Source of the DNA: Pempheris klunzingeri
Taxonomy: Eukaryota; Chordata; Actinopteri; Acropomatiformes; Pempheridae
Length of the DNA stretch: 64,000 nt
Direction of reading: 5' to 3'
NCBI RefSeq assembly: GCF_042242105.1
Contig: NC_092017.1
Span: 2,455,652 to 2,519,651, forward strand
The stretch's first letter is position 1. Each line of letters opens with the position of its first letter. Below, in pieces: positions 10,566-43,488 of the stretch. The notes under the pieces are model-generated. The model was not told the DNA's origin. It saw only the letters and a list, made by a program, of their open reading frames with translations, and made no database searches. Position numbers and translations under genes: made by a program.

Positions 10566-11214
10566 TCAGGCGTTGTTGATGATTATGAGAGCAGGACTAG
10601 CTGTCTGCTGACTCGTATCACACATGGCGCCCTGCTCGGCCGGCTTGGCAAACACTCGCGGCGTGTTAAGGTTGTAGACTCCTGCCTGGAGGAAACAGGC
10701 TCGCAGAGTCAGGCACAGCACCTCCTGAGGCTTCAGCTGCAGCTTGTACTGGGTTTGACCCACCCAGGTGAACGAGCTGTGGACCTCCAGAGACTCCGGG
10801 CTGAAAAAGGCACAAGTGGAAGGAAAGTAAAGAAAATCATTTCACTTTTACAAAGACGACTGAAGGTTAAAGATATATTTAACGGGATATTTTAATACTA
10901 GTCCTGTTCAAAAGTCTTTCTAACAGGACTCCTTAATTTCACTGCTATCAACATCTGGTTTTGCCAAAGTCTGAGTGCATAAGTCACGTTGTAAAGGATA
11001 ATGTTGAGCAACGCAGCTGCCAAGGTGTTCATAAAATCTAAAAACAAAATCTTACCCTGTACTTTTGTGCCGCAACTCTATGATGACATCCACTTGAGCC
11101 AAGGAACAGTTTGACAGAGTCAGAGTCACCGGCACCAGACAGAGACTAGAGAGACAGACAGAGAGCAGCTTCACTAAGCAGTTCCTCTGATGTGTGCCCA
11201 CTGTGAGGATGGCA

Positions 11215-11272
<58 letters not shown>

Positions 11273-14200
11273 ACCTGTCCTGCACAAAGGGGTGTGTGTA
11301 GGTCTCAGGGTAGTGCAGATTGGTTTTGATGAGTTGGGACAGCTCTGCAGATGGGAGGACAACTGGAGGAGGCAGCTCTGATTTAAACTTGAGCAGCACC
11401 ATCTCCTGAGCCTCCTGCGACAGAAACACAGAGTCACAGTGCACAACGCTACACCTCCTCTTCATGGCCTCATTTTCAGAATCAAACCCTACTGACACAT
11501 GAGGCGTCACACTTTGGGTGTCAAGCTGCATTAGTTTTCTAGATTTCAGTGCCTGGTACGAACACTGTCTTAGCAGTTTTAATTTTGGCGAGGATACAAT
11601 ATGTCTGGTCGTGTCATTTCAAATGTAAGTACCAGCGGGAAACTATCACCGTGAGTTCCACGTGAGGACTGCCGACACACTGACACAGTGGTGACAAAGT
11701 CAAGGCAACGTGTTGACCACGTCAGACCAGCTGTGGGTCCTCAAGACCTTCTGCTTTCATGGTGTGGGAAGCATCAACAACTGGTCTAGGAACTACTTCT
11801 CAAGACCCTAGTCCTACAGCCAGTGGTGTAGCATCTACGCTTGATATCAGCTTGTAGAAAGGTTACGTCAATGTTTTCAACTTGCCTTTTAGGGAACAGA
11901 CACGTTATGTGAAACCTCGGACCATGTTGTGGTGTGCATACTGTACCTCTCTGGGAGTCAGAGAGCTGGCCTCTTTGTCGATAGTCTGCAGGGCCACATG
12001 GAGCTGGCCCTCTAGGATCAGCTGTTTGTTATCCTCGACCATGTACGCCTGTGCAGACACACACACACACATCACATCACAAACTGGAGACAGAAGCACT
12101 AACAATCCATTTAGAGTCTCATTAAAGTTAAAGTTAATATTGAAATCAAGTTGATTGGTGATGGTCAGCCACAGCTCCTCATGTGACTGTTAGGATCCTC
12201 AAGTGCCAATTCAAAAAAAGGGGATGAGGAAAATCATCTCCTTCAAGCTGGTAAGAGTTAAAACTGTAGCTTGTCGTGTCATTTTGAATGACAACATTTT
12301 TATTCTAAGTCAGAATAAAAATGATGTTTTAATAAAATAAATACATTTGCCCGATGCAGCGACGTGCTGATTCCAACCCTTTTAGCTCAACAGAAGGAAG
12401 CAGCTCAGACAGCTACACTTAGCTCCTGCTCACTCCTGAGAGCTTAGTTCTGTTTAAAGGAGTGAAACCTCTCACACACACTTTCTGGGGTCTTTCTCCA
12501 GTCCAAACACTGTCCATAGGTATGAGTGAGAGTGTGAGGGGTTGCCTGTGTCTACATGTCTGTGATGGACTAGTGACCAGTCCAGGGGGCACCCTGCCTT
12601 TCACCCAGAGTCAGCTGGGATTCAGGGATGGATGGATTTGTGGTGTCATGTTTATTGGGAAGTAACTGCAACATCCTTTCAAGTTACTTAGCCAAGTGTC
12701 ATGTTCATTCCAGCTCACAGAAATCTGAGCAACTGTGGAAGAGAATAATAATGCAGCTCAAACTTGAACTTTGAACCCTAAATACATATCAGGGAGTCCT
12801 GTGCTTTGTTGTGCTTTCTGTTTTGTTGAATTAGAAATCATATTCCTTTGTGACTGGTTTTGGGTTTGGCCTCACTGCCTACGTCACAAAGGGAGTTATC
12901 ATGTCGCTCTGTTATGTGTACCTTCCAGATGACGATTATGTTGAGGTCCAACTCATTACACTTCTTGACAATGTTGATGATGTCAGAGGCTCTGTCCTCA
13001 GTGGGGGCGTGGCCCTGATTCTTGCTGCTTGACGTCCTGGATGACGCCACGTCCACTCGTTGAGATTCTGAAGTCCGACAGCTACGGAAGAAGAAGTCTC
13101 CGCAGGGTGTGGAGGAACTGACGATCTGCACGAAGACAATAGCAAGAAGTGGTGGGAAAGGCAGAAGTGGGTAGACAGAGAGAGGGAGAGCAGAAAATAC
13201 CCAAGAAGAAGAACACAGATCAAATGGAGAAAAGGTTCTAGCTTCTAGTCGGCCTTTTTCACAGCACGGCTTGTCCCAGTGGGAAGAACACAGGTGTTGT
13301 TGAGAACATTAAGGATGGCTCTGTCCCAGTAAGCTGTGACGGCCAGAACCCTGAAACTAAAGCAGCTAAATGGAATTCAGCCATTATTCATTTAATCATC
13401 TACACATGTGCTTTTCCTACTGCGACAAAGCCTCTGTGAAAAAGGCCCATTCTGGCTGCAACAAACACCGAACCTTGTGAGGCAGATTTACCATCACATG
13501 CAAGTCCATCGTGGCATGGACCACGGAGGTTCACACCAATCATCTTTAAGTTCCAGTCGGGGCTTAGGTGTGACAGCAGCAGCTACTTAGTTAGTTCCAA
13601 AACAACAATGGCGGCTCCCTTAGGGGTTAGTACACATGCTGCTGAAGTATCAGTTATATCTCTGTACTTATTTAATCCCAGGCACTATTTCTCTTTAGAA
13701 AATGTACACTTTACATTTTGGATTTGTATTTAACGTTTGTATTTTAAGTTGCGTCAACTGTGTACTCTTGCAATGCAATTTCCTTCGGGATCAATAAAGT
13801 TGATCTTATTCTTATCTGATCTAGAAAAGATTTGATCATTGAGAGAAAAGCACCGAACAGCACTGAAGGATTTTCTCCATGGAAAAGAAGTGTTGGCTTT
13901 AGCGAGATTGTAAACTACTTTATATGGTTTGTTGATTTGATGTGGATGTGTCACACTGGGATGGACAGATACCCTCCTGCCTCAGATGGTTGTGTGCAAC
14001 AACTCATCTGGAGCGTCACCACAAAGACAAACTGGAATCTGTGCTTGATCTCTGAGCTCAACACCATCAGATGACAAACGACTGCTGTTCTTTTCTAAAA
14101 CTGTTACAAAGCATCAAAAAGAGAACACGCATCAGATAAATGAAACCAACAACAACATTTTGCTTTCAGTTTACCCGCTCATTTCCCAGATTCAGGTCTG

Positions 14201-17200
14201 CAAAGGTGTACTTCCCCACAGCGTCCAAGGTATCTACACACAACAGACACGACACAGTCAGACTGAAAGCCCTAAATCTACAATACTGACTGTGGTTTGA
14301 TGATGTGACCTGTATGAAGTACCTTGGTAGGGCTTGCACCGTGTGGCCCTGAAACACAACTTGGCTCTTTCTCTGCTGGTGAGTTTACAGTCTAGAGGGG
14401 ACAGGGAGAGATGCTGTGACTGTGATCAATCAATCAATCAATCAATCAATGTCTTTATTTATATAGCATAACAAACATTATCACAAGACATTTCTCATAT
14501 AGAGCAGGTCAAGAACAAACTCTTTAAACAGGTTTGTCATATGTAGCAGTAACACTAGAATGGCCAACCCCTCCGGAGGCAGAAGTCAAAAGGTTTAGTT
14601 TACTTCATTATATATATTTGTTTCCTGGTTAGGATTAGTTATTTCATTTCTATTTAGTTCTCCATGTTTGATTCATGCTTAAATTGACCACAGATTAACC
14701 CCTAATGCATTTAGTTAGAGTTAGTCAGTTCACTCTGTGTTCAACTGTGGATCTTTGACCATCAAGCAGGATATTCATTTTGCCATTACATAATTACTAC
14801 AGTATTATGTAACATTTCATTATTATTATTCATTTTTCAAAGCTCCAGAATATTAATGAACCATTTGTGTGCATTATTAAAAGCACCTTGTAGTATCAGT
14901 GTATCACAGTATCTTTAAAAGTGGGTCCCTGTGCTGATCTACACAGAACACAAATCCAGCCCCTATGTGAGAAGTAACTGATACAGATGTATGAGAGATA
15001 AATGGAAGTGGAAGAAATAAAGCCCAGGTGCCAGACAAACCTTTATCCTTGGCTGGGTTGATACACTTGTGAAGGCGCCAGTGTTGACTGCTGCTGGACA
15101 CCTGGACAATGTGGAATTCACGCACACCAGCTTCACTCTGGGAGCCAAGAGGAGGCAGTTATAGGCTGTTCACCTTGACATGTGAGAGCTTCATACAGGA
15201 GGTGTGTGGCACGCCGTGCATCTCACCGTGTTAATGTTCTCCACGTCAACAAAGACCAGCGTTCCGCCGCTGCCTTTGTCATCCACACTGTGAAGAGGAG
15301 GAACGCTGCTGCGGCAGGCCGACACCTGCACACTCAGAGACCGACTTGCACAGATAAACACTGTGTGACGTAACACCCGATGACTTCGCACGAAGAGAAG
15401 GGAGAAAGAGTAAGGTGATGGAGACGCTGTGAACACACACCTCAGCTAACAGCCATTACATCTCTAACCATTTCTAATGGAAGTCTGTGAGAAGAGCAAG
15501 AGTGACCACACACAAAGAAGAAATGAAAGGGAACACTAACAATGTGGAGGGGGTCACAGAGCGACACAGGGTGTAAGGCTTATTTCTAAGTAGTGGACAC
15601 TAAGCGTGTCTCTCCTTAATGATTAAGAGTTCATTACTTTTATCAGAACATTTTGGATTCTACTTTAAAGAGATGATGACCCCTTTCTGCTACAAGCATC
15701 CCGGCTCGGTTACCCCCGAACAGAGGGAAGTGACCGTAGCTCTCAAAAACTCTCACAACTATACATCCGGACCAAATTCTGGATTATGACAGGGCAAAGG
15801 TATGCACACATGAACACACACTCCAGTCAAGTCAAAGTAAGCCACTAAGCATTTCACAAATGTCTGTCGACCAAATGAATACTGGTGACACGCACTGTGT
15901 GAAATATGTTGTGCACAAGTTGAAACCCAGATGAAGTTCCTAGAAAAGCTCTCTACTGATCAGCTCTGTTCTAGTCTTATACAGGTTCCTAATACTAATG
16001 TTAAAATGAGACATTTGGATAAATAAGCCCTACTATGCATGCAGTCTTCTTTACCTGATTTTGTTTCCTTTCTCCGTGCTTTCGTAGTAGAACAGGAAAT
16101 TGATTTCATGGACTCCCTCCTGGTCTGGTCCTCGGAGCCAGAGGGGCAGCTGGGTGGACTCGCCTGGTTGCAGCATGCTGCCTTCTATTGGGATCTCCAC
16201 CACACCGGCCGGCTGGCTGAAATCCTCGGCTGAGACCAACATCTCAGACGCCACTGAACCTGGTTGGAGTGCCGTGGCCATGGTTTTATAAGCTGAGCAG
16301 TTTTCAGCCGAGGTGGGGCTGAGGGGCGTGAGGGGTGTCGTAGCCTGACTGCCAAAAGTGAAGAAGTCGGGGTGTGTGGAAGCAACTCGGACGCCGCGCA
16401 AAGCAACGCTGCTGACGTTACAGAACTCAACGTAGGCCTTTCTGATCTCACCGCACAGCAGAGCAGTCGGAAACTGCAGGAAGAAAACCTGAAATACACA
16501 CACACACACACACACACACGGTGATAAACAGTCAGGTTTAGCACAACTGTGACCCTTTTTTTTTGCATGTTTGATAGTTTTGAGTTGTCCAGAAGACTGT
16601 AAATGACTAAAACATGATTTTGAATTTTGAAAGTGATTCTTCTCATGTCTGTATTATTCGTCTAACACTTTGTATTTTGTCATGGGATTTATAACACATT
16701 ACTTTGACTACATTTCCTCTTGTCTGGCCTTGTGCTTCTCAGCCTGGGCTGTGGCTTGCTACGTTTCTGACGGACATTAAACTCACTCACAAAGTAGAGA
16801 GCCTCAGGGTAGAGACACAATTTGAGGACGGGTGGAATGTGTGCTAAATGTTGTCAGTGCAAGGCTAATCAGCAGTCAGACATACTCAGACATAGAGTGA
16901 AACAGCATCCCTTCTTGTAAGCAAGGCAGGTATTATGTAGGGAAATCCCATTTAATTCTAACACATACTCAACATTAAATGACAGACTGTGTTCAGGGGC
17001 AATAAAATACTAATCAGGACATCCTTAGTCTTTAGATTGGCCACATTCTGTTAGAGTGTCCTAACAGTACCTCCATTAGGGGCATGGGTGGTGTTATGAT
17101 GGGATTCAGACGGAGATCAGGACCATGTCGAACCAACATCTTGTCCTCTTTGGTCTGGTTGAGTCGAGGTCCCTGGATCTTGAGATCCTGTCTGCCACGA

Positions 17201-20200
17201 ACAACCATCAAATCTAATGTTTGCTGGCCTGTAGACATGGAAATATCCACACAGTGTGTTAAGAGTGGCAGTAAGAATATCTGACATTGGGAGTTTTCTT
17301 TTCTTTGATAAATGTTTTCTCTAAAAATGACCTTACACAGATCAAAAATGCAAATGCAGTACAAGTCAGTCGGTCAGAGTCAGCAATGTGTCTGTACTCC
17401 TAACACAGTACTTTCATTCAGCAAGCACAACTGCAAGTCGGTGACACGACTACTGACATCAGAGTACAAACTGATACTAAAGCATCCGACAGCAACGTCC
17501 AAGGATCCAAGTTAAAGTAAATATCAGCTGACAAAACTCTGTGCATTACCTTCAGCGGTGGGAGCCATCTCTGCAGAGACATCAGCAGCCAGGTTGTACA
17601 CCACACCAACAATGTTCAGCTGGCCTGTTCTGTGCGGCAGCAGTCTGAGCCGAGCCTTGTATCAAGAGCAACAAAACAAACTCATGATCTGCACTCTTAA
17701 TTCTAGCTCACTTGCATTACTGTCTCTGGTCTGCAGGTGGATCACATCTCATCAAGCCATATCATCTGGATAGTGCACTTCTACGCCACCAACAGTCAAA
17801 TACATGTCAGTTCACCTCTAGACAGTCATGTCAGCACCTTACCATTTTGGTCTCCTCTGGACTGATGTGAAATTCAAGAATGACCTCAGAGGTAACGATG
17901 TCGTCCTGCTGTGTCATCTGCAAGAGTAAATAGATATTGAATGGACCATCTTTGTTTTGGTTTTTCATTGCATCTATCCATCAAACGGAACACAGATCAC
18001 AAGATGAAATGTTGCCCACCCCTAGAGCCAGGGTCTCCTCATTGGTGATGGCCACCTCTTCAGTTGTCTTGTCCATTGATGGAGACACACCACCGGCAGT
18101 GAATCTCCAGAGGAGTGAGAGGTTGGAGAGAGCCAGAGAAACCTTCAGAGGGTTCCTGAACGCAACCTCCACTATGATGGGTTCTGTAAACGGAGCATGA
18201 GTAATAATTATTGTTCTTTATATTGTGGCCAGGGTCCATTCAAACTGTCCCACTGTGTTTGAGCACTGAAGATCTCTTACCCTCCACTACAGCCAGTGGG
18301 TGGCGCAAGTTGTCTGTCTGGCTGTTCAGGCAGCACTGGGTGGGCTGGAAGTTTGCTGGGACAATCCCCCGGTTGGCAGCAGCCACGAGCTGTTCCTCTA
18401 GATGGCACCACATGGCTGCCAAATCCTGGTCATACTCCTGGTCCAAGGACACATGAGTGGCTGCCTGCTTTTCCCCTGCACACACACACACACACACACA
18501 CACAGATGAAATGGTAATTGGTCTCTAGAGAGGCACAATACAAGTAGTCATTTCGACCACTTTCACACTACATCCACGTTCATCCATTCACACATCATTC
18601 AAGGACACCTCGACATGCGGACTGGAGGATCCAGCTCCATCCTGCTCCATCTCTGAGCCACATTACTAACCATTAGATAATAAGAAGCAAAAAATCTATC
18701 ACTGGTTAATCAACATAATCAATACCACTACACATTCACACCTTGGAACGCCAAATTAGAGTAAACCTTTATCTAAAGGCAGCTCATTGATTCATTGATT
18801 AATACTGCTGTTAACATATATGGTTCACTAGTATTGCGTGGTGTACTGCAGGATTCAAATAGAGGCCTGTTTGAAATCATTTCAGTGGCAGAGTCCTGCC
18901 GACACAGTTGCAGTTCCAGGATTGGTAACAACTGATCTACACTACAAGGCAACTCGAACAAAGGAGGATGGACTTACCAAACAGAGAGTCTAAAAGAGAG
19001 GCTGACGACAAACAAAATAAAACACTAATCAGTATTGGAAAAGCTGCCTACTTTATCTTCCTGTAACATCTAAACGTGTAGCAGGTTTCTGTTAGTGTGT
19101 TAGTGTGCTGTGTAATGGATGGAAGACCATGAAAGCAGGTGATGAGCGGCTATGTAGAATGCTGCTAATGGTCTAACCGTAGCGTTAGCCAAGGCTGCAG
19201 TTCATTCTAGCTCATGTTTATGTAACGTTCTGTAACCGCATCACGATTCCAATCGGGACCGGGATGCACAAAAGTTGGCCTCTGAAATAAATTCATTTTT
19301 CTGCTAGCTTGTGTATGTAGATCTGAAAGCAGGCGATGATGTTGAATGTTGCTAATGCTTATCCGTCAGGGTCGTTGGATCCAATCACAGGGCCAACCAC
19401 TCGCACTCACACCTATGGGTAATTTCAGAGTCACCAGTTTACCTAACCTGCATGTCTTTGGAGGATGCCGGAGTACCCGCAAGCACGGGGAGAACTCCAC
19501 ACAGGTTCAAACCTGGATTCCAATCGTGTGCTAACCACCACACCATGCTGCTAAAGAATTGCTGCTATACTGTGTAATTGCATTGGAATCACATACACGA
19601 TCAGTTGAAGCTGCTCAGACAACATTTTCCTTCACTGAGCGGCTGTGGGTTCGATCTCCACTCCACTCGTGTCGTAGTGTCCTTCCACAAGACAGTAATC
19701 CCCAACTGAATGATTGGTTTCCTCCATTCACACACTGGTGTGTGCGAATTGTAGAAATTATGTGTATGTAATCAACATTTCACATGGTGAAAAGATTGTT
19801 ATATCATCTATTCATTATTTGCATCTGTGTTCATTAGGGATCCATGCCATGATGTCTGCTGCTGGAACCCTATAGTTTTTGTCCTCTTTATCCATTTATT
19901 TATTTATCTTTTGTTTCTCTGCTAAAAGCCTTTGTGCAGCCAAACTGTAAAACCTGATGACACCCTGCATCTGCAGATTTAGTTCATCATCCAGTTCAGA
20001 TCAGCCTCTTTCAAGTAAGTATCAATGAATTTGAACAACTCGTCCTCAGTTGCTCTGTCAGTTACACATTCACAGTTGCCCCGCGCCCCCCAGTTTGGGA
20101 ACCACTGCCTTAGCCCTTGCTCCTCAAAGATGCTCCTCCTTCAAGATGGTGGAGCAGAATATCTTCCTGCTCAAGCGAGAGATGAGGAGCAAGGAAATAC

Positions 20201-23200
20201 CAAATAAGAGACATGGGAAGGACCCAGAGATATTTTGTTTAACGAAGGTCATGTGGATAGATTTTTTGATTACATTTTAGTTTTTTTAAATGGGGGGGGG
20301 ATTGATCATTGTATTACCTTCTGCAAGGCGGCGCTCATGTCCAAAGTAGACCCTTGTGGCTGAGCTGTTGATGGAGGGCAGAGGCAGCTGAGGGAGGCTG
20401 ACTTCATTTCCCCCGATCACACTCTGAAAACACACACATGCAATCACCTTGGTTATTTGTCTGCTTTCATTACTTAAATATCACTATCTATCTATATAGA
20501 ATGCTATAATGACATATATATTCTTGATATTTGATATGGTTGTTGATTTTTTTCTTATATTATTCAATGAATTCAGTTATGAAACGAGTCAAATCCAAGT
20601 CTTCGAAACAGTTGTGCTAACAATGATCCTTGGTTATGTATCATTTCTGCTGCACACTGTCGAAAAACTCTGCTTTTTGCTACACTTAGATTGAAACTTT
20701 TATCTTTGTCTAGTTCTGGTTCAGTGCTCACACGTGGCCACAGTCACTTGGTGATATCATGATGTACAGCTGTGTCTGGTATGCAGAATTACAATGGCAA
20801 GACATTTTGCTATGGTTCTTCTTCTGAGCTGGTGGACGTGTGGGGATGTTGAGCAGAAGAGGTTTGAGACCAGAGCCTTGGGGAGCTCCAAGTCATTGTT
20901 ATTTACTCAGATATGTAGTTGCTCATTTAGACAAAGGGGTCTCCATCCTGTACAGTTGGCTAATTCAGCATAGCGACTACAGTTACCTTGTAAACATAGA
21001 GGTACTCTCTGAGGAAGGCGCCTTGTTGTGTGGCCGTTTGCCTGCTGTCATTGGTCAGGATCTGTCTGAAGGCCGTTACAGCATTCTCTGGTTGGTGAAG
21101 TGTGAAGGACTGACGGCCAATCGTGAAGTTGATATGGTCCTCTGCCAGAGACCAGCCCCTCTCCTTGTACACCTGCATGGCTTGGCAGTAACAGCGCAGT
21201 GCGTGCCTCCTCTGCATTGGACACAATCCAGAGGGTACAAGACAAGAGGAAGAGGAGGTTGTTACATAAGGCAACCATCAAGGACCAGACACTTTCATCT
21301 GTGGTTCTTCTCTAACACCACCAGTAAATCAATCAGTGTGAGGAGGGCCGGCCATAGTGATTTGGAAAGTGGTAGGAGGCACACTCTAGATGCTCTGTCA
21401 CAGTCCAAAATAGTTTTTTCTTCTGTTTTGTGATTTATAAGTGCCACTTATGGCACATATGTGCATGTGATGATCAGATATGTTGCTACGCATTTTCCTA
21501 GTTGACTCAAAGTAAATCCATTTTTTTTCCTTTTCACTTTTTGTGTTACATATGTACAACTGACACCCTTCTCTCCAGGCAGACTCAGTCTAGAGGCCCA
21601 TACTTCTCATCAGGGGCATCTCTGATTCTGTGATATAGAGTTACTTTTATCAGCAAACATACACAGTACAATATCACTCAAAATAACATATCATATGACA
21701 TAAAAGCTCTCAAGTAACATAGTTCTTGGTTTTTCCCATGATATGATCAATAATATCAGAAAGAGCATCAAAGCAAAATGTGTCTGGGTGCCTCCTCCTT
21801 TTGAATCCTGGATAGCATGGAGGCTATGTCAGGCAAAACCAAAGAAAGATAATGATTTACTCACTAAAAAAGTCTTGTAATGACCACCAGTAGTGATATA
21901 GGGTTGACATTTTGAATTTCTATGTATTTCAATGAGTGCCCTATAAAGGGTTAAGTACTGTAAACTGTAACAAAATATACTGCTGAACAAAAAGAATCTG
22001 GGACAGTAACTGTTTGCAATGCTACAGGTTAAAGATTGAACCAGTATGGCTATGAGAGCTGTACCGTCGGCAGGGACATCATCACACTCCCACATATAAC
22101 CCTGTTTAGAGCTTCTGGGCACCAGTGTTAGGTTAGGCCACGCAGACCAGGAAGGGTTGAAAGGCTCACCTGTCCTGCTTTGCTGAAACGATGACCGGCC
22201 AGGATCATATGGAAGGCAAACTTGCGCACCATAGGACTACGCATATTAATAAAACAATGGGCGGCCTGTTCCAACAGCAGAGCACTGCGCAGGTCAGAGT
22301 CCTGAACAAAAAGGTCAAATAAAAAAGAATTGGTTGAAGTTTGACTTGATAATTCTACTTCTGTGAATTCATTCATCCATCGATAGAAAACCCCACAGCA
22401 GGTTACTAGATTCACAACTGTAAACTGGTGAGAACAGCAGTTCCCACAGTATTCAGTAAATCTATTACACAAGTAAACACAATGTATCACTTTTACCCAG
22501 TTGTGTGAGAATTATTAAAGCATGGTGCACAGACAGGTTTAATGATAGTGGAGTTAAGTGTGCAGTGCACCTGGGTAAGACGGGACATACAACAGGGCTG
22601 AACATGGTGTGATGTTTCCTCACCTCGCTGGTCATCTTGATGAGGAGAGTTGCAGCATCTGAGTATTTGCCCTGACTCTTGAGTATCTCCGCACTGAGTA
22701 AAGCACAGCGCTCAGCCAGCACCATGTTCCTGTAGAGGCAGAGGGAAGAATGTTAACATGCTGACGTCAAAGCTGCAAACACTGACAGCTGCCACAGACA
22801 CAAAAGGGACGTCTGAAAGGACAAGCAAAACTTTATGGGATATTCTGAATTCTTATCACAGGCAGTTACAGTAAGTATAATAATGAGTTTTGAGTCAACT
22901 CATGCCTTATGTAATATTTTCCAATAATCAAACGTTTGTGTCTTTTTTTCCAACAACCTTCGATTATTTTAGTATTCTCAGGGCGAACACTGGAAAAACA
23001 TCTATGAAAAGAATATGACACTGGAATAGCACAATATCCTGTTACACAAACACTGACTTTAAACTGGAATAGCAGGCAGAAAAAAATGTTCTAATCAGGT
23101 CATACTTGCAGACATCTCTGTACGTCTGTATCGCTGTGTCCATGTAGTGTGCTGGGTATGGTCTGGGAGCTCCAGCCTGCAGAAAGGCTGACACTGCAGC

Positions 23201-32200: not shown

Positions 32201-34871
32201 ATATGATAGCAGAATGAAACGTCCACACTACCATATTGATCACAATAAAAAATAGATATTCATCTAACATTTTTCTCATATTCTTTATGACAACTTTGGT
32301 CCTCCTGTTTATAAATGTAAACTTAAGCTATATATACTTCATACAAACTATAATTGTTTCACTGTAGTTGGTTAAGAAAAAATAATTTCAGTCAAGATGG
32401 TGGTGAAAATAAACAGGGATTCATTTGTGTCATAGAGTGTGCCACTTGTGGATCATGGATCATAACATGCTGCGTATGGAATTCATCTGCAGACGCTGTG
32501 CTTCAAAACAAGACCAAACCTTTCTATGGATGTCTTTGAGCCATGACAAAGTTCCTCAACTGCAGCATGTGCTCACATCCAGGGCAGGCACAACACAACA
32601 GACTGACTGAGTGCACACGTGATGACAGACTGTAGCAGAGCTCCGGCACATTCATCCATCCATACATGACCCATACCACTCATCCTTAAGGGCCGTGGGG
32701 GGGCTGCAGCCAGTGCCAGCTAACATTAGGCGAGAGACGGGTTTAGTCACCAAATTAACCTAACCTAGTCTTTGGACTGTGGGAGGAAGGCAGAGAGCCT
32801 GGAGAGAAGACTGGCCCCATGTTCTAACTGCAAGTTGCCAGATTCAAATCTGCAACGTTCTTACTGTGAGACAACAGTGTTAGCCACCACACCACCATCG
32901 AGAACTTTCACCATACGCATGAATCCTGTTCTCTCTACAGCTGAGCATGGCGGCATACTGGCAGTGGTATTAGTTATCACTTTGGCACAGTCTGTCTTTG
33001 CAGTTGGACGCTGCCTGAGTGCTGTAGGGAGAGGGACTCGTCTTCATGTCTGACTTAGTCTTGTTCTGCTAGTACATAACACCACAGAAATCCTTCAAAT
33101 ATCTGATAGAATTCCTCCTTTTCACTCTGCAAGATCCTGCAAGCAGTCATTTTCAGCACATGCGCAGAACAGAGCAGGAGCAACATCCTTTTCATACCAA
33201 GTCTGGCAGTGTGTGAGTGTGTGGAGCATTGGACGTATACTAGTTTAGCAGGAATGCTAATCAGTATGCACTGGGAGTACAGGATGTACTACACTACCCC
33301 AGAATGCATTGCGCCATGGCAGACTGAAAAGCCAACAGTTGTAGCTCCACACTGTGGCTCTTAAGAGGTATGGCTGTAGAAAACACTCGGCAGTGATGGC
33401 GAGTCACAAGAAGCAGGAGCTACTCAGGATCAAGGACGTTAAGAGGTGAAACACACATGTATAGTGCAGTGTAGAAACAATATTTACACATAAATATTCA
33501 AGAATTATATTTAGCCTTAAAACAAAACTGAGAACTATCACACTGAGTGCTGATTTGATGCAGAGGAGACACACTGCTTCAGTATACTTCACTGTCAGGG
33601 CGCTGTTGACTGTTCATTTAGGAAGCAGCACATCCTGACTGACCATGTAGAGCTGTAGTACTGTAGAGCTGTAGTACTGTAGAGCTGTAGTACTGTAGAG
33701 CTGTAGTACTGTAGAGCTGTAGTACTGTAGTGTTGTAGAGCTGTAGTACTGTAGTGCTGTAGTGCTGTAGTGTTGTAGAGCTGTAGTGCTGTAGTGCTGT
33801 AGTGTTGTAGAGCTGTAGTACTGTAGTGCTGTAGTGCTGTAGTACTGTAGAGCTGTAGTACTGGAGAGCTGTAGAGCTGTACAGCTGTAGTACTGTGGTG
33901 CTGTAGTACTGTGGTACTGTAGTATTGTAGAGCTGTAGTACTGTAGTGTCAGACCTCTGGACACACTTCCCTTACTGCATCTGAAGCACTTCCTAAATGC
34001 TGCGCGTGTCGTCAAGTTCATTAAACTGTTTTCTTAATTTGCTTGTGTGTTTTCTTAAATCGAGCCGTCGGGGCCACCGTAGTATTCTGCCAACAGAAAA
34101 CATTTCAGTGCGGTCGATGGTGACTTATCAGTCAGGCTACATGCATCAGACTGTTCTCTTAATACTACGGTAGTTGTAGTCTACAATATTAATATTACTG
34201 GTGTCATTATTTCACACAACACTTTAGCCAGCAGGCTGGCTGGAGGGGGTTTACTGAAGCCCTGACAGTCTAAATATCAGACACATCACTGATACATGCT
34301 GTCAAACGTCGTGGCACGGCTTGCATCTTGTCTTACTCGGCTATCGGGTTAGTTTAGCCTAGTTTATTTATGTGTGGACTGCAACTACAGCCCGTTAGCC
34401 CGCTAGCTTGTTTACTACAGCTCTTTCTTGTTCGGTCCGATAATCCGGCACCAACAGAACTGGTGTAATGAAGGTATCGTCGAGAGCAGCTTTCAAAGGC
34501 CAGACCAGGTGTCATTCGGCCCTCAAGTCTGGACTTCATCTTCCCTCCTGTCAACGTTCAGATGCTTAGTCACAATCCAGTGTGCTAACCGGCTGTTAGT
34601 GCGGAGCTAACGACGCTAGCTGTCTCGGAGAAGCTACGGCTGTGACAGCTGACACACCGACGGCCGGGGGTCACAGCGGGTTCTAGGAGGGTTCTAGGTG
34701 GGTTCTGCGCTTACCTTCGGACGTTAGTCTGCAGAAAGGCCTCAGCAGCTCAGCGAAACTCAGGTTGTTCTTGCGAGTCACTCTCTCCGCTTCTTCACTA
34801 CACAAGACGGCCACCATCGGAACAAACGAGTCCTGGACGAACTCCTGCACTGACTGAACACACTGGGCCAT
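10566..34871 (-). CDS. trappc8: trafficking protein particle complex subunit 8 (complete, 29 coding exons)
   Basis: TRAPPC8 is the Trs85-type subunit of the TRAPPIII Rab-GEF/tethering complex (ER-Golgi traffic, autophagy). Exons 5' to 3': 34715-34871, 31087-31296, 28552-28641, 27604-27778, 27147-27300, 26899-26995, 26084-26346, 23983-24098, 23709-23859, 23106-23206, 22624-22729, 22170-22301, 20987-21211, 20318-20423, 18281-18475, 18020-18183, 17843-17917, 17550-17655, 17071-17228, 16055-16488, 15227-15383, 15041-15137, 14323-14391, 14175-14233, 12922-13125, 11947-12048, 11275-11414, 11056-11145, 10566-10800. They sum to 4368 bases, 1455 aa (human about 1435), with GT-AG borders and matching phase throughout. 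Start MAQCVQSVQEFVQDSFVP; Trs85-like core with HDHIRQFIQEFTFRGLLPHI (about residues 340-360) and MADLCFLVQHYELAYSCYHT; helical-repeat-like middle (about 470-660, EDHINFTIGRQS); beta-rich C-terminal half with LPLWLRGPDQEGVHEINFLF and FVDVENINT; end SPALIIINNA. No broken exon seen. Confidence 0.97.
11218..11269. repeat. (GT)26 microsatellite inside trappc8 intron 27
   Basis: On the transcribed strand this is (AC)26, starting six bases after the donor of exon 27. It makes up about 40 percent of a 129-base intron (11146-11274). Confidence 0.95.
12515..12640. repeat. short interspersed repeat, family A, in trappc8 intron 25
   Basis: Contains GATGGACTAGTGACCAGTCC, CACCCTGCCTTTCACCCAG and GTCAGCTGGGATTCAGG, the hallmark middle of a common fish repeat. 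The rest of the intron (12049-12921) shows nothing recognisable. Confidence 0.6.
13741..13813 (+). mobile_element. probable LINE 3' tail in trappc8 intron 24
   Basis: CAATTTCCTTCGGGATCAAT then AAAG and a (TTCTTATC)-like short tail, typical of the 3' end of fish Rex/RTE LINEs. No coding part remains. It lies in the intron spanning 13126-14174. Confidence 0.45.
14424..14532 (-). mobile_element. L2-like LINE 3' tail, copy D (diverged)
   Basis: (ATCA)n followed by a TTTATTTATATAGCATAACA-like stretch and AGAGCAGGTCAAGAACAAAC, the reverse complement of the L2 tail seen at 5361. It is more diverged and shorter than the other copies. It sits in trappc8 intron 22 (14392-15040), which has no other recognisable content. 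Confidence 0.7.
16496..16519. repeat. (AC)12 at the trappc8 exon 20 acceptor
   Basis: On the transcribed strand a (GT)12 tract ends a few bases before the TATTTCAG acceptor of exon 20. Confidence 0.95.
18479..18504. repeat. (CA)13 abutting the trappc8 exon 15 acceptor
   Basis: On the transcribed strand (TG)13 runs directly into the CAG acceptor of exon 15 (exon begins at 18475), replacing the polypyrimidine tract. Confidence 0.95.
18555..18680. repeat. short interspersed repeat, family B, in trappc8 intron 14
   Basis: Contains CCATTCACACATCATTCAAG, ACACCTCGACATGCGGACTG and GAGGATCC, the core of a teleost repeat seen again at about 19620, 42180, 43880 and 48035. In better copies the reverse strand has a tRNA-like GGTTCGATCCCC box. 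Confidence 0.6.
19365..19545. repeat. short interspersed repeat, family A, in trappc8 intron 14
   Basis: A well-preserved copy: ACTCGCACTCACACCTATGG, AGAGTCACCAGTTTACCTAA, CATGTCTTTGGAGG, CACGGGGAGAACTCCACACA and a GTGCTAACCACCACACCATG-like end. This is one of the most common short repeats in fish genomes. Confidence 0.75.
19620..19745. repeat. short interspersed repeat, family B (reverse orientation)
   Basis: GAGCGGCTGTGGGTTCGATC followed by AGTGTCCTTCCACAAGACAG is the reverse of the family B repeat. The GGGTTCGATC box looks tRNA-like, but there is no complete tRNA fold. Confidence 0.55.
25848..26052 (-). mobile_element. L2-like LINE 3' tail, copy C, close to trappc8 exon 7
   Basis: Reverse complement of the tails at 5361 and 8201, with (ATCA)n, TTTATTTATATAGCAACAAT, GAGCAGGTCTAGACCAAACT and a CCACATGAGCAGCATCAGAT stretch. 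It ends about 30 bases from the exon 7 donor (exon lower edge 26084). The rest of the intron 24099-26083 is repeat-like AT-rich DNA without a recognisable gene. Confidence 0.85.
26450..26870. mobile_element. interspersed repeat relic in trappc8 intron 6
   Basis: Contains CCTAGGTCAGGTTCTTGCCA, CTCTTACCAAAACCCATCCC, GTTCTTGGGAACCTTCA, CAGGTGTTTGTCTTTCCAAA and GTAGAAACATCTCAAAGATG. I recognise this word order from an abundant teleost (including salmonid) transposable element but cannot assign the class. It fills most of the intron 26347-26898. Confidence 0.5.
27852..28045 (-). pseudogene. Tc1/mariner transposase C-terminal fragment
   Basis: Minus-strand translation gives WDELDHRVKEKQQRSAQHLC followed by a stop, then a LLQDCWKTIQ-like stretch and a CQECAKLS-like stretch. 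This is the end of a fish Tc1-like transposase, with an internal stop and frame breaks. It lies in trappc8 intron 3 (27779-28551), next to the 45-bp minisatellite. The rest of the transposase and the terminal repeats are not seen. Confidence 0.75.
28069..28317. repeat. 45-bp minisatellite, about 5.5 copies, in trappc8 intron 3
   Basis: Tandem units starting at 28069, 28114, 28159, 28204, 28249 and 28294 with almost no divergence. Unit landmarks are GAGGGTCCAGCTTGACTCCC and CTTCTCCTCTGGACCCCT. The 45-base period keeps an open minus-strand frame with a 15-residue repeat (REGVKLDPQGSRGEV). Confidence 0.95.
31750..32180 (+). pseudogene. decayed LINE reverse transcriptase fragment in trappc8 intron 1
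   Basis: Plus-strand translation includes SDYIIKFVDDITAAGLS, which resembles the catalytic IVKFADDTTVVGLI block of Rex/Jockey-like reverse transcriptases. In a later frame EVKWLSGWHSDAQKTNHLS and MKQMKNDFLKAHVAHRPLI look like the region that follows (usually with a TKEMIVDFR motif). Frames are broken and similarity is weak, so this is an old copy. It lies in intron 1 (31297-34714). Confidence 0.45.
32655..32905. repeat. short interspersed repeat, family A, in trappc8 intron 1
   Basis: CATCCATCCATACATGACCC, TAAGGGCCGTGGGGGGGCTG, AACATTAGGCGAGAGACGGG, ATTAACCTAACCTAGTCTTT, GGACTGTGGGAGGAAGGCAG, then a ACAGTGTTAGCCACCACACC-like end. This is the fullest family A copy in the window. Confidence 0.8.
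33644..33948. repeat. 8-bp/16-bp tandem repeat in trappc8 intron 1
   Basis: About 300 bases built from CTGTAGTA, CTGTAGAG and CTGTAGTG units. The 135-residue Tyr/Thr/Ser/Leu-rich minus-strand ORF across it is only a reflection of the repeat. Confidence 0.95.
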
Positions 34872-36991: not shown

Positions 36992-37224
36992 ACTGGGTGT
37001 CCTAATGACAAGTGGTACCTATTTCTGTTTTAATGTCTTTTCTATTTTATCCGTTAACTGTTTAAAGTCGTATCCTAATCACACTGACAAAACTGTGAAA
37101 CCAATTATTTCTTTTTTCTTGAAGCAGATTCACTGGATCCTTCCTGACTGGCCCTTAGGTTAGCAGAAAGTGAGGCAGGGGTGCAGACTGAAGCTGTGAT
37201 GGAGGAGCAGGAGGAAATCATTTG

Positions 37225-37883
37225 TCAATTGTCCGAAAAAAGGCCGAGCAGAGGTTGTACTTCCTGCGACAGCTCAGGAAGTTTAACCTGCCACAGGAGC
37301 TGCTGATCACAGTCTACTCTGCCATCATCCAGTCTGTTCTCTGCACTTCCATCCCTGTCTGGTTTGGATCGGCCACCAAACAGGACAAGCACAGACTGCA
37401 AAGGACAATCAGGTCTGCAGAGAGGATAATTGGAGCCGATCTGCCCTCCATCCAGGACTTGTACCTGTCCAGGGTCAGGGGGAGGGCAGGTAACATCTCT
37501 GCAGACCCCTCACACCCCGCACAGAAACTCTTTAAACTCCTCCCGTCTGGTAGGCGCTACAGATCACTGTACGCCAAAACCAGCAGACACAGAGACAGTT
37601 TGTCACCTGATGAACTCTCTCTAGTCTCAGAGACTCGGGAACCACTGTGCAATAGTCCCATACCTGCACATTGCACTATATCTGCACTACTTTGCGCTAT
37701 ATAACTGCACCACACCTACCTCCACTGTACACACTGTTGTTATGAGTGCTCATATTGTTCATATTCTTATTGTTGTAGTTTATTTCTTACTTTTTACTGT
37801 ACATAAAGAGAGAAGTTGCACCGGAGTCAAATTCCTTGTTTGCTTTGTACAAACTTGGTCAATAAAGATGATTCTGATTCTGA
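37225..37883 (+). mobile_element. Rex-like non-LTR retrotransposon, 3' part with open RT C-terminus
   Basis: An open frame of about 160 codons carries KKAEQRLYFLRQLRKFNL, VYSAIIQSVLCTSIPVWFG, KHRLQRTIRSAERIIGADLP, SIQDLYLSRVRGRAG, DPSHPAQKLFKLLPSGRRYR and SLYAKTSRHRDS. This is the canonical end of the RT protein of Rex/Babar-like fish LINEs. It is followed by a short 3' UTR ending AATAAAGATGATTCTGATTC. The copy is 5'-truncated, but the frame is intact where present, so insertion is fairly young. It sits between two Harbinger-like pieces. Confidence 0.85.
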
Positions 37884-38748: not shown

Positions 38749-41700
38749 TCATTTGATGTTGCGTAATATGCGGCGAGCATGACTGCTTTTCATGGCCGCC
38801 AGAGCAGCCTCCAGTGTGGAGATGAGGTGCAGCAGGGTGCTGGGGTCCGTCTGGAGAGCTCTGCTGCTGCGCTCGCTACCACTGTCCCGCTCTCTTGTCA
38901 GGAGCAGACGCATCATCAGCATGGGACGGACCTGCTGACGGACTGAGCGACTCGCCAACTGGCAGGAAGAGGTGGGAGGGGTGGGGGGGGCACCGAAGTA
39001 AATAACAGAGAAACAAGGGCAAAAAAAATAGAGCACGTACAGTGTTAAGTGCTAGAAACACAAAATGTTAGAAATATAATATCTGTGCGCTCACTGGTTC
39101 TGATGGTGGAAAAGTTGATCAATTACCACAATAGAGTGTAGAAACAATGCAAAGAAGAAATATTCACATACAGTGCCTCACAGTTCCCTTCTTCCTGGTT
39201 TCATCAACAACTGTTTTAGAGCTTCAAACTAAATTGAATATAAGTCAAAGAACACCTGAGTAATGTTTCATTTGTTCTCTAGAGCCTACAAAGCATGGGT
39301 GTGTGACCCGGCATCGGAAAGGAATGAAATCTCCAGTCATTACTGTGCAAGCTAAAAATATTCAAGTCGAGCAAAACATATGTCTGGCAGAGAGCTCTGG
39401 TTTCCCACGGAGACGCCTTTAGCGGTCCTATTCTGCGGGGGAATCTCAGTGCTGAATAAAGCATCGAGTAGCACCCGAAGCTCTCCTCTCTCATTCACCG
39501 ATGAACTCAAACGAACTGATAACTGAGTTCGATGAGACACAATCAGCACGCTGGGTCAGCAGTGGTTAGCACTGTCAGGTTCCAAGGTTGAACCATTCTG
39601 TGTACACTTTCTATGTTCTCCCTCTGCTTGTGTGGGTTCTCTCTCTCTCCAAGTACTCCAGGACCCCCCCCCCAGTCCGCTCAAAGAAAGTTAGGTTAAA
39701 GCAACAGCTGATAACTCTTAGAAATATCTGCTGAAACTGTCAGTATTTACGTGAGACAGGTCACGTGTGAAAACAAAAAAGAGAAATCAGCTTCCTTTGG
39801 CTCCTTCCAGTGCTCGTAATGTGTTCAAGACTCCACTGCGCCTGAATCAAACTGTCTCTCCTGCAGTGTCAGGCACTGCTTCTACACAGGCTCTGACTCA
39901 GTCCAGCTCAGCAGTTCTTAACAGATAGTCTCCCAATACAGTCTGAACATCTGCCACAAGTTAATGTGACAGATGTGCAAGAATAGAAGAAATCAGGAAG
40001 GGCACAATCTGTGGTGGATCCTAAACAGATCTGCTACAGATTGTGGTGGATCCTACACAGATCTGGGATCGACACCTCTTTGATTGGATCCATGTATGTT
40101 ACATCAGATTTAAAAAGCCTGAGCCTGAAACGAAGCGCAGGAGCCTGGACAAAGACATGAATTACTGCTGCAAGTTCTATATTTACAGCATCATCCACTT
40201 GAATCCACAACAGATGAATAATAATGTCTACATTATCCAGCATATTAACCCAAATGCACACACCTGTACATCCAGTCTCCACTCCAGGTTGTGGTAGGCA
40301 GGCAGGTTGGGGGGCAGCTGCCCCAGGGTGCTTCGGATCTGACTGTGGTGCTGCAGGTAGAGCTGCAACAGAAAGCCTCACATGCTCACCTGGCCAGTAC
40401 ACTGTCATCCAACTGTGCACTGCTCAAATGAATCAAACGGATCCAAAGTCACCTGTAAGAGGATCTGGTTCAGCTCTTCACCAAACCCCAAAACCAGCAC
40501 GGAGTCCAGGAAATCCACTTCAGAGATCTACACACACACACACACAGCTAGTGAACATGTGGGTTACCAGGTATTGGTGTTAAAGTGTTTCATGACCACA
40601 CGTCACATGACCCCCCCCCCCCGTCTTCCTGCTTGTCATCACACAACAGCAGAAGAAATGGTTCCGCACGGACAATGAACCTGAGCACAAAGCACTGGTC
40701 TGTGGGACGGATCTTATCGTTCATTCAGGGTAGTCTAGACGACGTCAAACATGGTTCTGAAGCTGTGCCGATACGACCAGAGAGAAGTGTGTGTGTGTGT
40801 GTGTGTGTGTGTGAGTCACCATGTGCTTGGAGCTCTCTGTCATCAGGAACATCAGGCCCTCCACGCCGTGCTGCACCATCTCCACAGGAACACACAGCTT
40901 CCCTGCAAGCAGTCAGTCGTTACGGACTTACTTTGTAATCTGTGTGTCACAGCTGGAAGATGTGGGAAAATGACTGATTTATTTCTCAGCTTTGCACTAC
41001 TAATAGTCAATCAGCTGCCTCGCTCTCCTCTGTCTGGTGGGACACTAGGCTGAATAAAAAACGCTTGCTGGAATATCCTGGAAGGTGTTTTAGGTGAGGG
41101 TTTACTGCAACGTGTGACAGAGAAATGTGAATAACGGGCGCTACATGTGGGGAATAAGGTGCTATTAAGCACCTGACCACCGAGGCACGTTATCCCCTTC
41201 ACAACACAATGCCTGGATCCTTCCCGCTGTGTTATCCAGCACTGGGGATTTATCGGAGAGTTATTTACCAGGTTTTACAAGCTGCTGTCCCTTGACATAC
41301 ATATGTGAAATAAAAGAAGGAAGAAGAGCTCTTCAGTGAAGCTCTTTTTTACTGTGTGGATATCCACTCAGCGTCCACTTTCTTAGGTCCACTAGCCAAC
41401 CAGCAGTACACAAAAGAGCCCAGCGACACTCTCATATTCACTGTGACTACTGTTGACATGAGGTTTTGATTCAACTCATCATTGTGGAGGCTGCACTTGT
41501 GTTATACTGAGGGGTGTTTCCAATATTTTGTCCACACGCTCTATCAGGTATGAATACTACTGACTGGGCTGTTGTGTCAGACTGCACTGCCTTCAGTAAG
41601 GTGAACCTGATAATAAGACAACTAAATACATGTTTCCAGAGCAACAGCAGAGGTGAGAACACTGGAGCACTACTGTATGATGTGTCTGAGGCGCTGCTTT

Positions 41701-43488
41701 AAACCACACTGCCTGTCACTGGTCCCACACTGTCTGCGGTGTGGACTAGAGCTTGGAACAGCAGCCCAGTCAGCTGCTTGGTGAGCACTACTTCGTGAGA
41801 GGTGCAGAGTCTTACTGGCTGCTCCCTCGTAGATCTTGGGGGTCGTTCCTCTTTTTAGGAACTCCAGCGCTATGCGGCCGAACTCTCCGACCACTGAGGA
41901 CAGAAGAACACATGGACGCGTACACTTCATTTTCAGATTCCATGTCTTAAAGGGTTGAAATGTACACTTTGTTCCAGACATCCTCATGTTTAATCTGGAG
42001 GAGGAAACTGTTATTTTCAGGTACTTGTACTTTGAGGATTTGATGCTACTTAATAACTTTTTTCAGATTTAAATGTACTTTTTACTCTACTACATTTTTA
42101 TTTGACAAGTAACTTCACTCATTTAGATTTTTACACTATATCAAGCAAAAAAAGGTAAATGTCTATCTGAACAGCTCCTTTCTAGTCATTTCACCTACTC
42201 TGAGCTCCATCACATCCTCATTCACACGTCATTCATTCAGGAGGAGACTGTTCTTTCACACACTGAAGCTGCTTCAGGAACAAGCTGGGGTTCAGTGTTT
42301 TGCCCAAGGACACTTCAACATGCTGACTTAGAGGAGCTGGGGATCGACCCTTTGATTGAGGGACGACCCACTCTCCCTCTGAGCGACAGCCGCCCACAAA
42401 ACATCCCCCCCATGAGGCGGTGGTGGTGGTGTGTCTTCCTCAAGTACCTAGGATTACACTCTTCCATCCTGACCGTGGGACTTCCAGCCCACACTCAGTG
42501 CAGATGTTCCTGTTCACTATGCCAGCCACTTGGTTATAGCGCTTCATGTACGTTTTCCTGTCTGCAGCTTCCACCCTGTTATTATGTGCTGGACTCCTTC
42601 AGGAGCACCTCTGCACAGCCTGCCCCTGGGGTCCTGTCTGGTGTGGTAGACCCCCGCCCCCCCGCCTGCTCTTGTGCTGCCATGATTAGTGCTTCTGTGC
42701 TGTCTTTTAACAGCCTTTTCCAGCCACTGCTAGGATTTCTTCATACCAACCACTTCTTCAGGTTTCTGGGGGCCATCTTCCTGATGGGTTTCTGGATCTT
42801 GATTGTTTCGTCCCAGACAGTGGCTCCTCGGCCTCCCCCACTCCACTTAGCGTTAAGTCTCAGGGTGCTGGACTTTGGATGAAGCCCTCCATGCATCCTG
42901 AGGAGCTTCCTTGTCTTGTCTTTATGTCCTCCTTTAGCCTGTTTATTACTACAGCAGGGTGTCTGATGACTGGCAGGGTGTACGTGTTGATGGCTGGGAC
43001 TTTGTTCTTCCCATTCCGCTAATTGTGTGTGTGTGGGGGGGGGACATTGAGTCATTGGCTATATCTCTATCTATATATCTATATATCTATATCTCTATCT
43101 AATAATACACTGTGTATTCAGTACTTCCTTTTAATACTTTAGCAGCTTATTAGGATTCTGTTCTGTCCCTCCACTGCTGTGTGCACACATGCTGTTCTAA
43201 AGGAAACCCTTAGAGTGGGAGTTCTGCTGACACCCCCAGCTTTCCCTCAGTCCCATCATCAGTGCTCCGGACGCTCTGTTCCACTGACTGGTCCCACTCA
43301 TCACGAGCCCGCTGCCCTGCACACCGCCTCTGTCTGACTACTGTGAGCTGACAGTCAGCTGATCCGTCACCACGGCCCCGATCTGATCCTGAGTCAGTGC
43401 ACTGACGGAGCTGGGACTCACCTGCGGCATCGACCGTGGGCAGGAAGGCCAGGTGTTCTTTGTGCTCCTCAGACAGAACCAGCAGCAT
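38749..43488 (-). CDS. commd2: COMM domain-containing protein 2 (complete, 6 exons)
   Basis: COMMD2 belongs to the COMMD family, which forms the COMMD ring of the Commander complex (endosomal recycling) and has been linked to NF-kB control. Exons 5' to 3': 43422-43488, 41816-41893, 40820-40902, 40453-40527, 40264-40362, 38749-38958. They total 612 bases, 203 aa (human 199), with GT-AG borders and phases 1,1,0,0,0. The protein starts MLLVLSEEHKEHLAFLP and has EFGRIALEFLKRGTTPKIYE (about residues 26-45), VQHGVEGLMFLMTESSKHM and a helical N-terminal region. The C-terminal COMM domain begins at NLEWRLDVQLASRSVRQQ (Trp129) and the protein ends HARRILRNIK. Intron 1 holds LINE debris. Intron 3 has complementary CA and TG tracts at its two ends. 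The gene is in tandem with lmnb2 upstream and trappc8 downstream on the same strand. Confidence 0.96.
39555..39705. repeat. short interspersed repeat, family A, in commd2 intron 5
   Basis: GTCAGCAGTGGTTAGCACTG, GTTCTCCCTCTGCTTGTGTG, GGGTTCTCTC and a CCAGTCCGCTCAAAGAAAGT-like end mark a reverse family A copy. The remaining intron (38959-40263) shows nothing I recognise. Confidence 0.65.
40531..40546. repeat. (CA)8 at the 3' splice site of commd2 intron 3
   Basis: On the transcribed strand this reads (TG)8 followed directly by TAG and exon 4 (40527). There is no conventional pyrimidine tract. Confidence 0.97.
40787..40813. repeat. (GT)13 at the 5' splice site of commd2 intron 3
   Basis: On the transcribed strand this reads (CA)13, starting six bases after the exon 3 border (GTGACT then CACACA). 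It is complementary to the (TG)8 at the other end of the 292-base intron. Confidence 0.97.
42180..42400. repeat. short interspersed repeat, family B, in commd2 intron 1
   Basis: CATCACATCCTCATTCACAC, TTCAGTGTTTTGCCCAAGGA, CACTTCAACATGCTGACTTA, GGGGATCGACCCTTTGATTG and a GACGACCCACTCTCCCTCTG stretch give a well-preserved copy. Its reverse strand shows the GGGTCGATCCCC tRNA-like box. Confidence 0.7.
42440..43025 (-). pseudogene. R2/R4-type LINE, C-terminal fragment, in commd2 intron 1
   Basis: Minus-strand translation from high to low coordinates gives TRKLLRMHGGLHPKSSTLRL, GGGRGATVWDETIKIQ and IRKMAPRNL, and further on VQHIITGWKLQTGKTY and KRYNQVAGIVNRNICTE then CGLEVPRSGW. These follow the order of the C-terminal part of the type-1 R2-like (Dong/R4-type) retroelement protein common in fish and are interrupted by stops and shifts. 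The part between (about 42600-42740) is not recognisable. It is dead and 5'-truncated. Confidence 0.75.
43063..43100. repeat. (TATC)n-like short tandem repeat
   Basis: Imperfect ATCTATAT/ATCTCT units over about 40 bases, just left of the LINE fragment in commd2 intron 1. Confidence 0.7.

Follow-up and report, generated by a model that had tools for sequence, protein, structure and literature searches.

Introns in which AC and GT repeats bridge the two ends were reportedly described in fish by Lin et al. in 2016 (Genome Research) and are said to occur in about 10% of zebrafish genes; Yeo (2004) is said to have predicted that AC and GT repeats of fish introns act as enhancers independently of each other. 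Bridging introns have been put forward to illustrate how RNA structure can take over from a core splicing factor. At CFTR exon 9, a T tract separates the TG repeat from the acceptor, the donor has no CA partner, and TDP-43 is best known as the repressor of this UG-repeat acceptor. The intronic CA repeat of eNOS, bound by hnRNP L, stimulates splicing without a UG partner. According to an excerpt of a recent paper (PMC12962679), CA/UG pairing draws the ends of fish introns together and replaces U2AF2. Excerpts of two reviews describe repeat hairpins that mediate U2AF2-free splicing in zebrafish (PMC9198270) and AC and GT tracts that enforce the choice of splice sites in lamprey and fish (PMC7404189). 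Among the listed publications mentioning commd2 and intron, judged by title and the start of the abstract, none dealt with a repeat-bridged intron.

Splice signals and borders of commd2 intron 3

In a 64,000-nt stretch of the Pempheris klunzingeri genome (the window), the minus strand of positions 38749-43488 carries the six coding exons for COMMD2, which measure 67, 78, 83, 75, 99 and 210 nt. The joined exons give a 203-aa protein that aligns over its full length to solved COMMD2 in a PDB search (8f2r_B, E 4.8e-83), which we take to be the human protein. The junction between exons 3 and 4, TESSKHM/ISEVDF, is gap-free and carries no insertion relative to 8f2r_B. The borders of intron 3, numbered by coding introns only, follow from the protein alignment together with GT and AG, and place the following features:

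40820..40902, minus strand: commd2 coding exon 3, matching COMMD2 without a gap
40528..40819, minus strand: coding intron 3, 292 nt, phase 0
40814..40819, minus strand: 5' splice site GTGACT, after an exon that ends in ATG
40787..40813, minus strand: (CA)13C tract from intron position +7, with (CA)13 at intron positions 7-32
40551..40555, minus strand: branch-point-like TTCAC (yUnAy) ahead of the TG tract, with its A 25 nt from the end of the intron
40530..40546, minus strand: (TG)8T tract, its last T shared with TAG, with (TG)8 at intron positions 274-289
40528..40530, minus strand: 3' splice site TAG
40453..40527, minus strand: commd2 coding exon 4, 75 nt, in frame

The earlier note had described a 292-nt intron of the form GTGACT(CA)13...(TG)8TAG that lacks a polypyrimidine tract and leaves a loop of about 240 bases between its repeats. 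The sequence confirms this anatomy, the borders fit the COMMD2 alignment, and the measured spacing from the CA to the TG tract is 240 nt. Pyrimidines make up 50% of positions -23 to -4 (nine U, one C), bearing out the absence of a polypyrimidine tract; this fraction of 0.50 is the joint lowest, with trappc8 introns D-E and M-N, among the 32 introns annotated in the window. The duplex of the donor with U1 is worth -5.1 kcal/mol, and three of the 32 introns have weaker donors. Donor and acceptor of intron 3 are thus both weak, neither uniquely so in this set. The neighboring commd2 intron 4 (40363-40452, minus strand, 90 nt) opens with the same unusual donor hexamer, GTGACT.

The TTCAC element matches the branch-point consensus yUnAy. 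An AG at position -22 sits 3 nt from its A, probably too near to compete, and its use as acceptor would shift the frame and lead to an early stop. Retention of the intron likewise leads to an early stop, whereas skipping of exon 4 removes 25 aa without a frameshift and leaves an open 178-aa protein.

Predicted pairing between the intron ends

The isolated CA and TG tracts form a best duplex of 17 bp with -30.1 kcal/mol; the pairing proposed in the earlier note is therefore predicted, and its stated maximum of 16 bases is corrected by one. The expected number of tract-to-tract pairs is 16.65 for the intron alone and 16.61 with 60-nt exon flanks, and forbidding these pairs raises the ensemble free energy by 33.8 kcal/mol. 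Folding of the intron, suggested as a check, gave a divided result: the tracts pair strongly, and folding of the entire intron does not surpass that of its dinucleotide shuffles (z = -0.48, or +1.52 with exon flanks). We rejected these whole-intron z-scores as evidence for structure, because dinucleotide shuffles retain CA and TG. Scrambling the tracts in place still left 5.88 expected pairs, with at least 8 pairs in 21 of 50 scrambles.

When the intron is folded alone, pairing takes in the first three bases of the donor and most of the branch site; adding 60-nt exon flanks frees the donor but leaves the acceptor AG mostly paired. As modeled, these folds are not clearly splicing-friendly.

To compare intron 3 with its neighbors, the donor end of each of the 32 introns was scored against its own acceptor end and against the ends of the others, giving 1024 head-tail combinations. 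The end-to-end complementarity of commd2 intron 3 (-31.6 kcal/mol) is the strongest of the 32 own-end pairs, and only 7 of the 1024 combinations reach this value, with mismatched ends averaging -13.5 kcal/mol. The runners-up are commd2 intron 4 (-26.5 kcal/mol, with ends overlapping by 5 nt) and trappc8 intron V-W (-24.2 kcal/mol), both about 90 nt long. A general end complementarity of trappc8 and commd2 introns was rejected, as without commd2 intron 3 the own ends score -12.28 and mismatched ends -13.33 kcal/mol. The tracts of commd2 intron 3 probably pair, and this pairing may help splicing.

CA and TG tracts at other splice sites

The comparison set consists of the five commd2 introns and 27 introns of the neighboring gene trappc8, which we annotated in the window on the minus strand from Pfam TPPC8 domains. 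The 28 trappc8 exons around these introns form a single open frame with 1402 residues up to the stop; the first trappc8 exon, near 34868, and its intron were left out of the set of 32, and a PDB search with a trappc8 segment returned no match. Intron B-C contains a 45-bp unit repeated 5.5 times with 99% matches (28067-28315). Elsewhere in the window lie a CTGTAG-rich tandem array of 16/24-bp units (33646-33948, about 300 bp) and, on the plus strand at 37192-37704, an open reading frame with a Pfam match to ALKBH8_N (PF09004), presumably a retroelement remnant. Four trappc8 introns carry one of the two repeats at a splice site:

18476..20317, minus strand: intron M-N, ending in (TG)13CAG; donor AAG/GTAATA without a CA tract
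16489..17070, minus strand: intron R-S, a 24-nt TG tract followed by ATTTCAG; donor without a CA tract
12049..12921, minus strand: intron X-Y, a 15-nt TG tract ending 8 nt from the 3' end; CA run at the donor of at most 5 nt
11146..11274, minus strand: intron Z-AA, GTGGG and then, starting at +6, a CA tract of 52 nt; acceptor of the usual pyrimidine-rich kind

With commd2 intron 3 included, TG tracts of at least 12 nt lie within the final 40 nt of four of the 32 introns, and CA tracts of at least 12 nt within the initial 40 nt of two. The reverse arrangement, TG at the donor or CA at the acceptor, was found in none of the 32 in either case. All four TG tracts of at least 12 nt in these introns stop 2-8 nt before the intron end, the three in trappc8 at 3 to 8 nt, and none of 200000 random placements put every tract within 9 nt of it; two of the three CA tracts of at least 12 nt start at +6 or +7, as in 1 of 200000 random placements. 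The plus strand of the window contains five CA and five TG tracts of at least 10 nt.

Only commd2 intron 3 carries both tracts, for which the margins predict 0.25 introns (p = 0.24). When the seven sense-strand tracts of at least 12 nt that lie in introns were placed at random, one intron received both kinds at its splice sites in 1 of 200000 trials. This null takes no account of the tendency of these repeats to lie at splice sites, which the value of 0.24 includes. The longest TG acceptor, (TG)13CAG of trappc8 M-N, belongs to an intron whose donor end is the least complementary to it of all 32 donor ends. If the inferred exon borders are used, the trappc8 TG acceptors without a CA donor imply that a TG acceptor can do without a CA partner, at least in trappc8 and commd2. 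The window thus provides natural controls side by side in two conserved genes, with one intron that has both repeats, three with a TG acceptor only and one with a CA donor only, so that pairing and separate protein-read elements can be directly compared with one set of splicing reporters.

For a genome-wide view, patterns were counted in the 646-Mb assembly with both strands summed, and each pattern's own reversed form served as control. The acceptor pattern (TG)8YAGG occurs 2132 times and its reversed form 917 times, a 2.3-fold excess; the donor pattern AGGTRNGN(CA)8 occurs 104 times versus 50 (2.1-fold). The reversed controls suggest that perhaps nearly half of the pattern matches are not real splice sites. 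The joint pattern GTRNNN(CA)6 N{40,70} (TG)6YAG was found 0 times in either form, and with a spacer of N{230,260} it was found 4 times versus 4, one of the four being commd2 intron 3. In the two length windows counted, the joint CA-donor/TG-acceptor design is therefore not in genome-wide excess; the strict patterns do not capture tracts that are shorter or in the other register, nor different lengths, and its rarity holds for the counted design alone. Unanchored (CA)8 N{225,255} (TG)8 likewise showed no excess, with 8793 placements versus 12284 in the opposite order, long tracts being counted many times in such numbers. CA/TG tracts of at least six units number 51 in 264 kb (the window plus 20 stretches of one contig).

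Individual matches were then inspected for partners. The CA-donor sample comprised the first 40 places listed among the 104 matches, with the window's trappc8 site and a five-copy tandem cluster (contig C9) removed. A TG tract of at least 10 nt lies within about 900 nt downstream in 10 of the 40, where tract density predicts 3 to 4, and in two (L031 and L068) a TG tract is followed by YAG within that distance. L031 looks real as a candidate bridged intron of about 207 nt, with CAG/GTAGGA(CA)n and a 57-nt TG tract followed by YAG; L068 is of low complexity. Among the first 40 places listed for the 2132 TG-acceptor matches, all on contig C1, seven have a CA tract of at least 10 nt within 900 nt upstream, versus 3 to 4 expected. 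By our judgement the CA tract directly follows a donor in one of these 40 (L045), which has an open frame downstream and is a candidate bridged intron of about 127 nt, with AAG/GTGAA(CA)5C and (TG)28 before the acceptor. In L051 and L083, a GT lies within 14 nt before the CA tract; both were judged non-donors, L051 having no open frame past the acceptor and L083 reading GTC. With a shorter spacer, (CA)6 N{60,90} (TG)6YAGG gave 55 placements versus 42 reversed. The 55 correspond by eye to 29 distinct places, of which 20 were inspected, and a G/GTR directly precedes the CA tract in two of the 20 (L106 and L118). CA donors and TG acceptors seem to be mostly separate habits in this genome, which agrees with the prediction that Yeo is said to have made.

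Explanations and comparison with known systems

We regard it as an even call that paired CA/UG tracts of commd2 intron 3, otherwise an ordinary spliceosomal intron of the GT-AG type, aid the joining of exons 3 and 4. Its weak donor and missing pyrimidine tract go together with a CA repeat immediately downstream of the donor and a complementary UG repeat immediately upstream of the acceptor, and these two would pair in the nascent RNA over about 17 bp, with several registers possible. The helix would begin just past the U1/U6 contact and have its UG side between branch point and acceptor, so holding the splice sites close across the 240-nt loop and helping to join exon 4 to exon 3. The analysis shows the sequence, the borders by protein alignment and the predicted pairing; that the tracts pair in the cell, and thereby aid splicing, is what we infer. 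Of the bridging, U2AF2-free mechanism put forward in the earlier note, the anatomy and the strong predicted pairing stand; the one-repeat introns nearby, the few partnered loci, the shuffle z of -0.48 and the pairs left after scrambling weaken it. The TG tracts found downstream of 10 of 40 CA donors speak for pairing, and the mostly paired acceptor AG, the chance-level overlap in the 32 introns (p = 0.24) and the joint pattern counts speak against it. The two repeats are probably not a co-evolved pair in origin, because either one can also be found by itself at splice sites here, and the introns with one repeat only imply that pairing may help commd2 intron 3 without being essential.

Quite possibly, TG repeats in this fish replace the pyrimidine tract without needing a partner, and CA repeats are a donor-side element in their own right, which would make commd2 intron 3 a coincidental bridge. 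If so, pairing would be a by-product or secondary aid rather than the founding feature of a bridged class. The two repeats of commd2 intron 3 may act apart, with pairing incidental, an explanation that we hold tentatively and with some doubt: the UG tract would replace the pyrimidine tract and be read by U2AF or a UG-binding protein, and the CA tract would serve as an enhancer within the intron, to which a protein resembling hnRNP L binds. This is consistent with tracts at four of 32 acceptors (TG) and two of 32 donors (CA), always in the same orientation and together in one intron, with TG tracts hugging the intron ends more closely than in any of 200000 random placements, and with the genome-wide excess of each repeat alone (2132 versus 917 and 104 versus 50). 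Since pairing would work in either orientation, the fixed orientation is presumably not a requirement of pairing. Relations of HNRNPL to AC repeats and of TARDBP to GT repeats, given in an excerpt of a preprint (PMC13174678), point the same way. Against separate action, proteins would have to compete with a duplex of about -30 kcal/mol, and the TG-binding protein TDP-43 is best known for repressing such an acceptor at CFTR exon 9.

It is improbable that the tracts are neutral microsatellites tolerated near splice sites, and that splicing relies on nothing more than U1, exon signals and the branch point. CA/TG microsatellites are common (51 per 264 kb, as counted above), and intron 3 has a branch-point match as well as GT and AG; the non-random placement near splice sites in fixed orientation, in two annotated genes, and the genome-wide excess argue against neutrality. 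It is very unlikely, finally, that exon 4 is a regulated cassette whose skipping is caused by a repressor bound to the UG repeat at the acceptor, in the manner of TDP-43 at CFTR exon 9: the layout is of the TDP-43 (UG)m type, with a UG repeat immediately before an exon that can be skipped in frame (178 aa), whereas intron 3 retention or the AG at -22 gives an early stop, but the skipped form would lose 25 residues in a region conserved with solved COMMD2.

Bridging by the paired tracts, the reading that we favor, can be set against the described systems. Commd2 intron 3 shares UG-repeat RNA with the pUG fold and differs from it in having 8 repeats only. According to an excerpt of the source (PMC12962679), this quadruplex requires 12 guanosines, with (GU)11.5 as the shortest form, and we therefore rejected it for (TG)8. 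As in eNOS, where the repeat is bound by hnRNP L, the intron contains an intronic CA repeat. As at CFTR exon 9 with its (TG)m acceptor, a UG repeat lies just upstream of the 3' splice site; unlike there, the UG tract abuts TAG and a CA partner is present. The closest likeness in anatomy is to the published fish CA/UG class, which the intron fits as the earlier note proposed, and of which it would at best be one more case. In the two length windows counted, the joint design is rare in this genome, compared with the bridging introns reportedly described by Lin et al. Like those introns, commd2 intron 3 is short, has a CA repeat at one end with a complementary UG repeat at the other and lacks a pyrimidine tract, and its predicted end-to-end helix (-31.6 kcal/mol) exceeds that of every other intron among the 32 compared.
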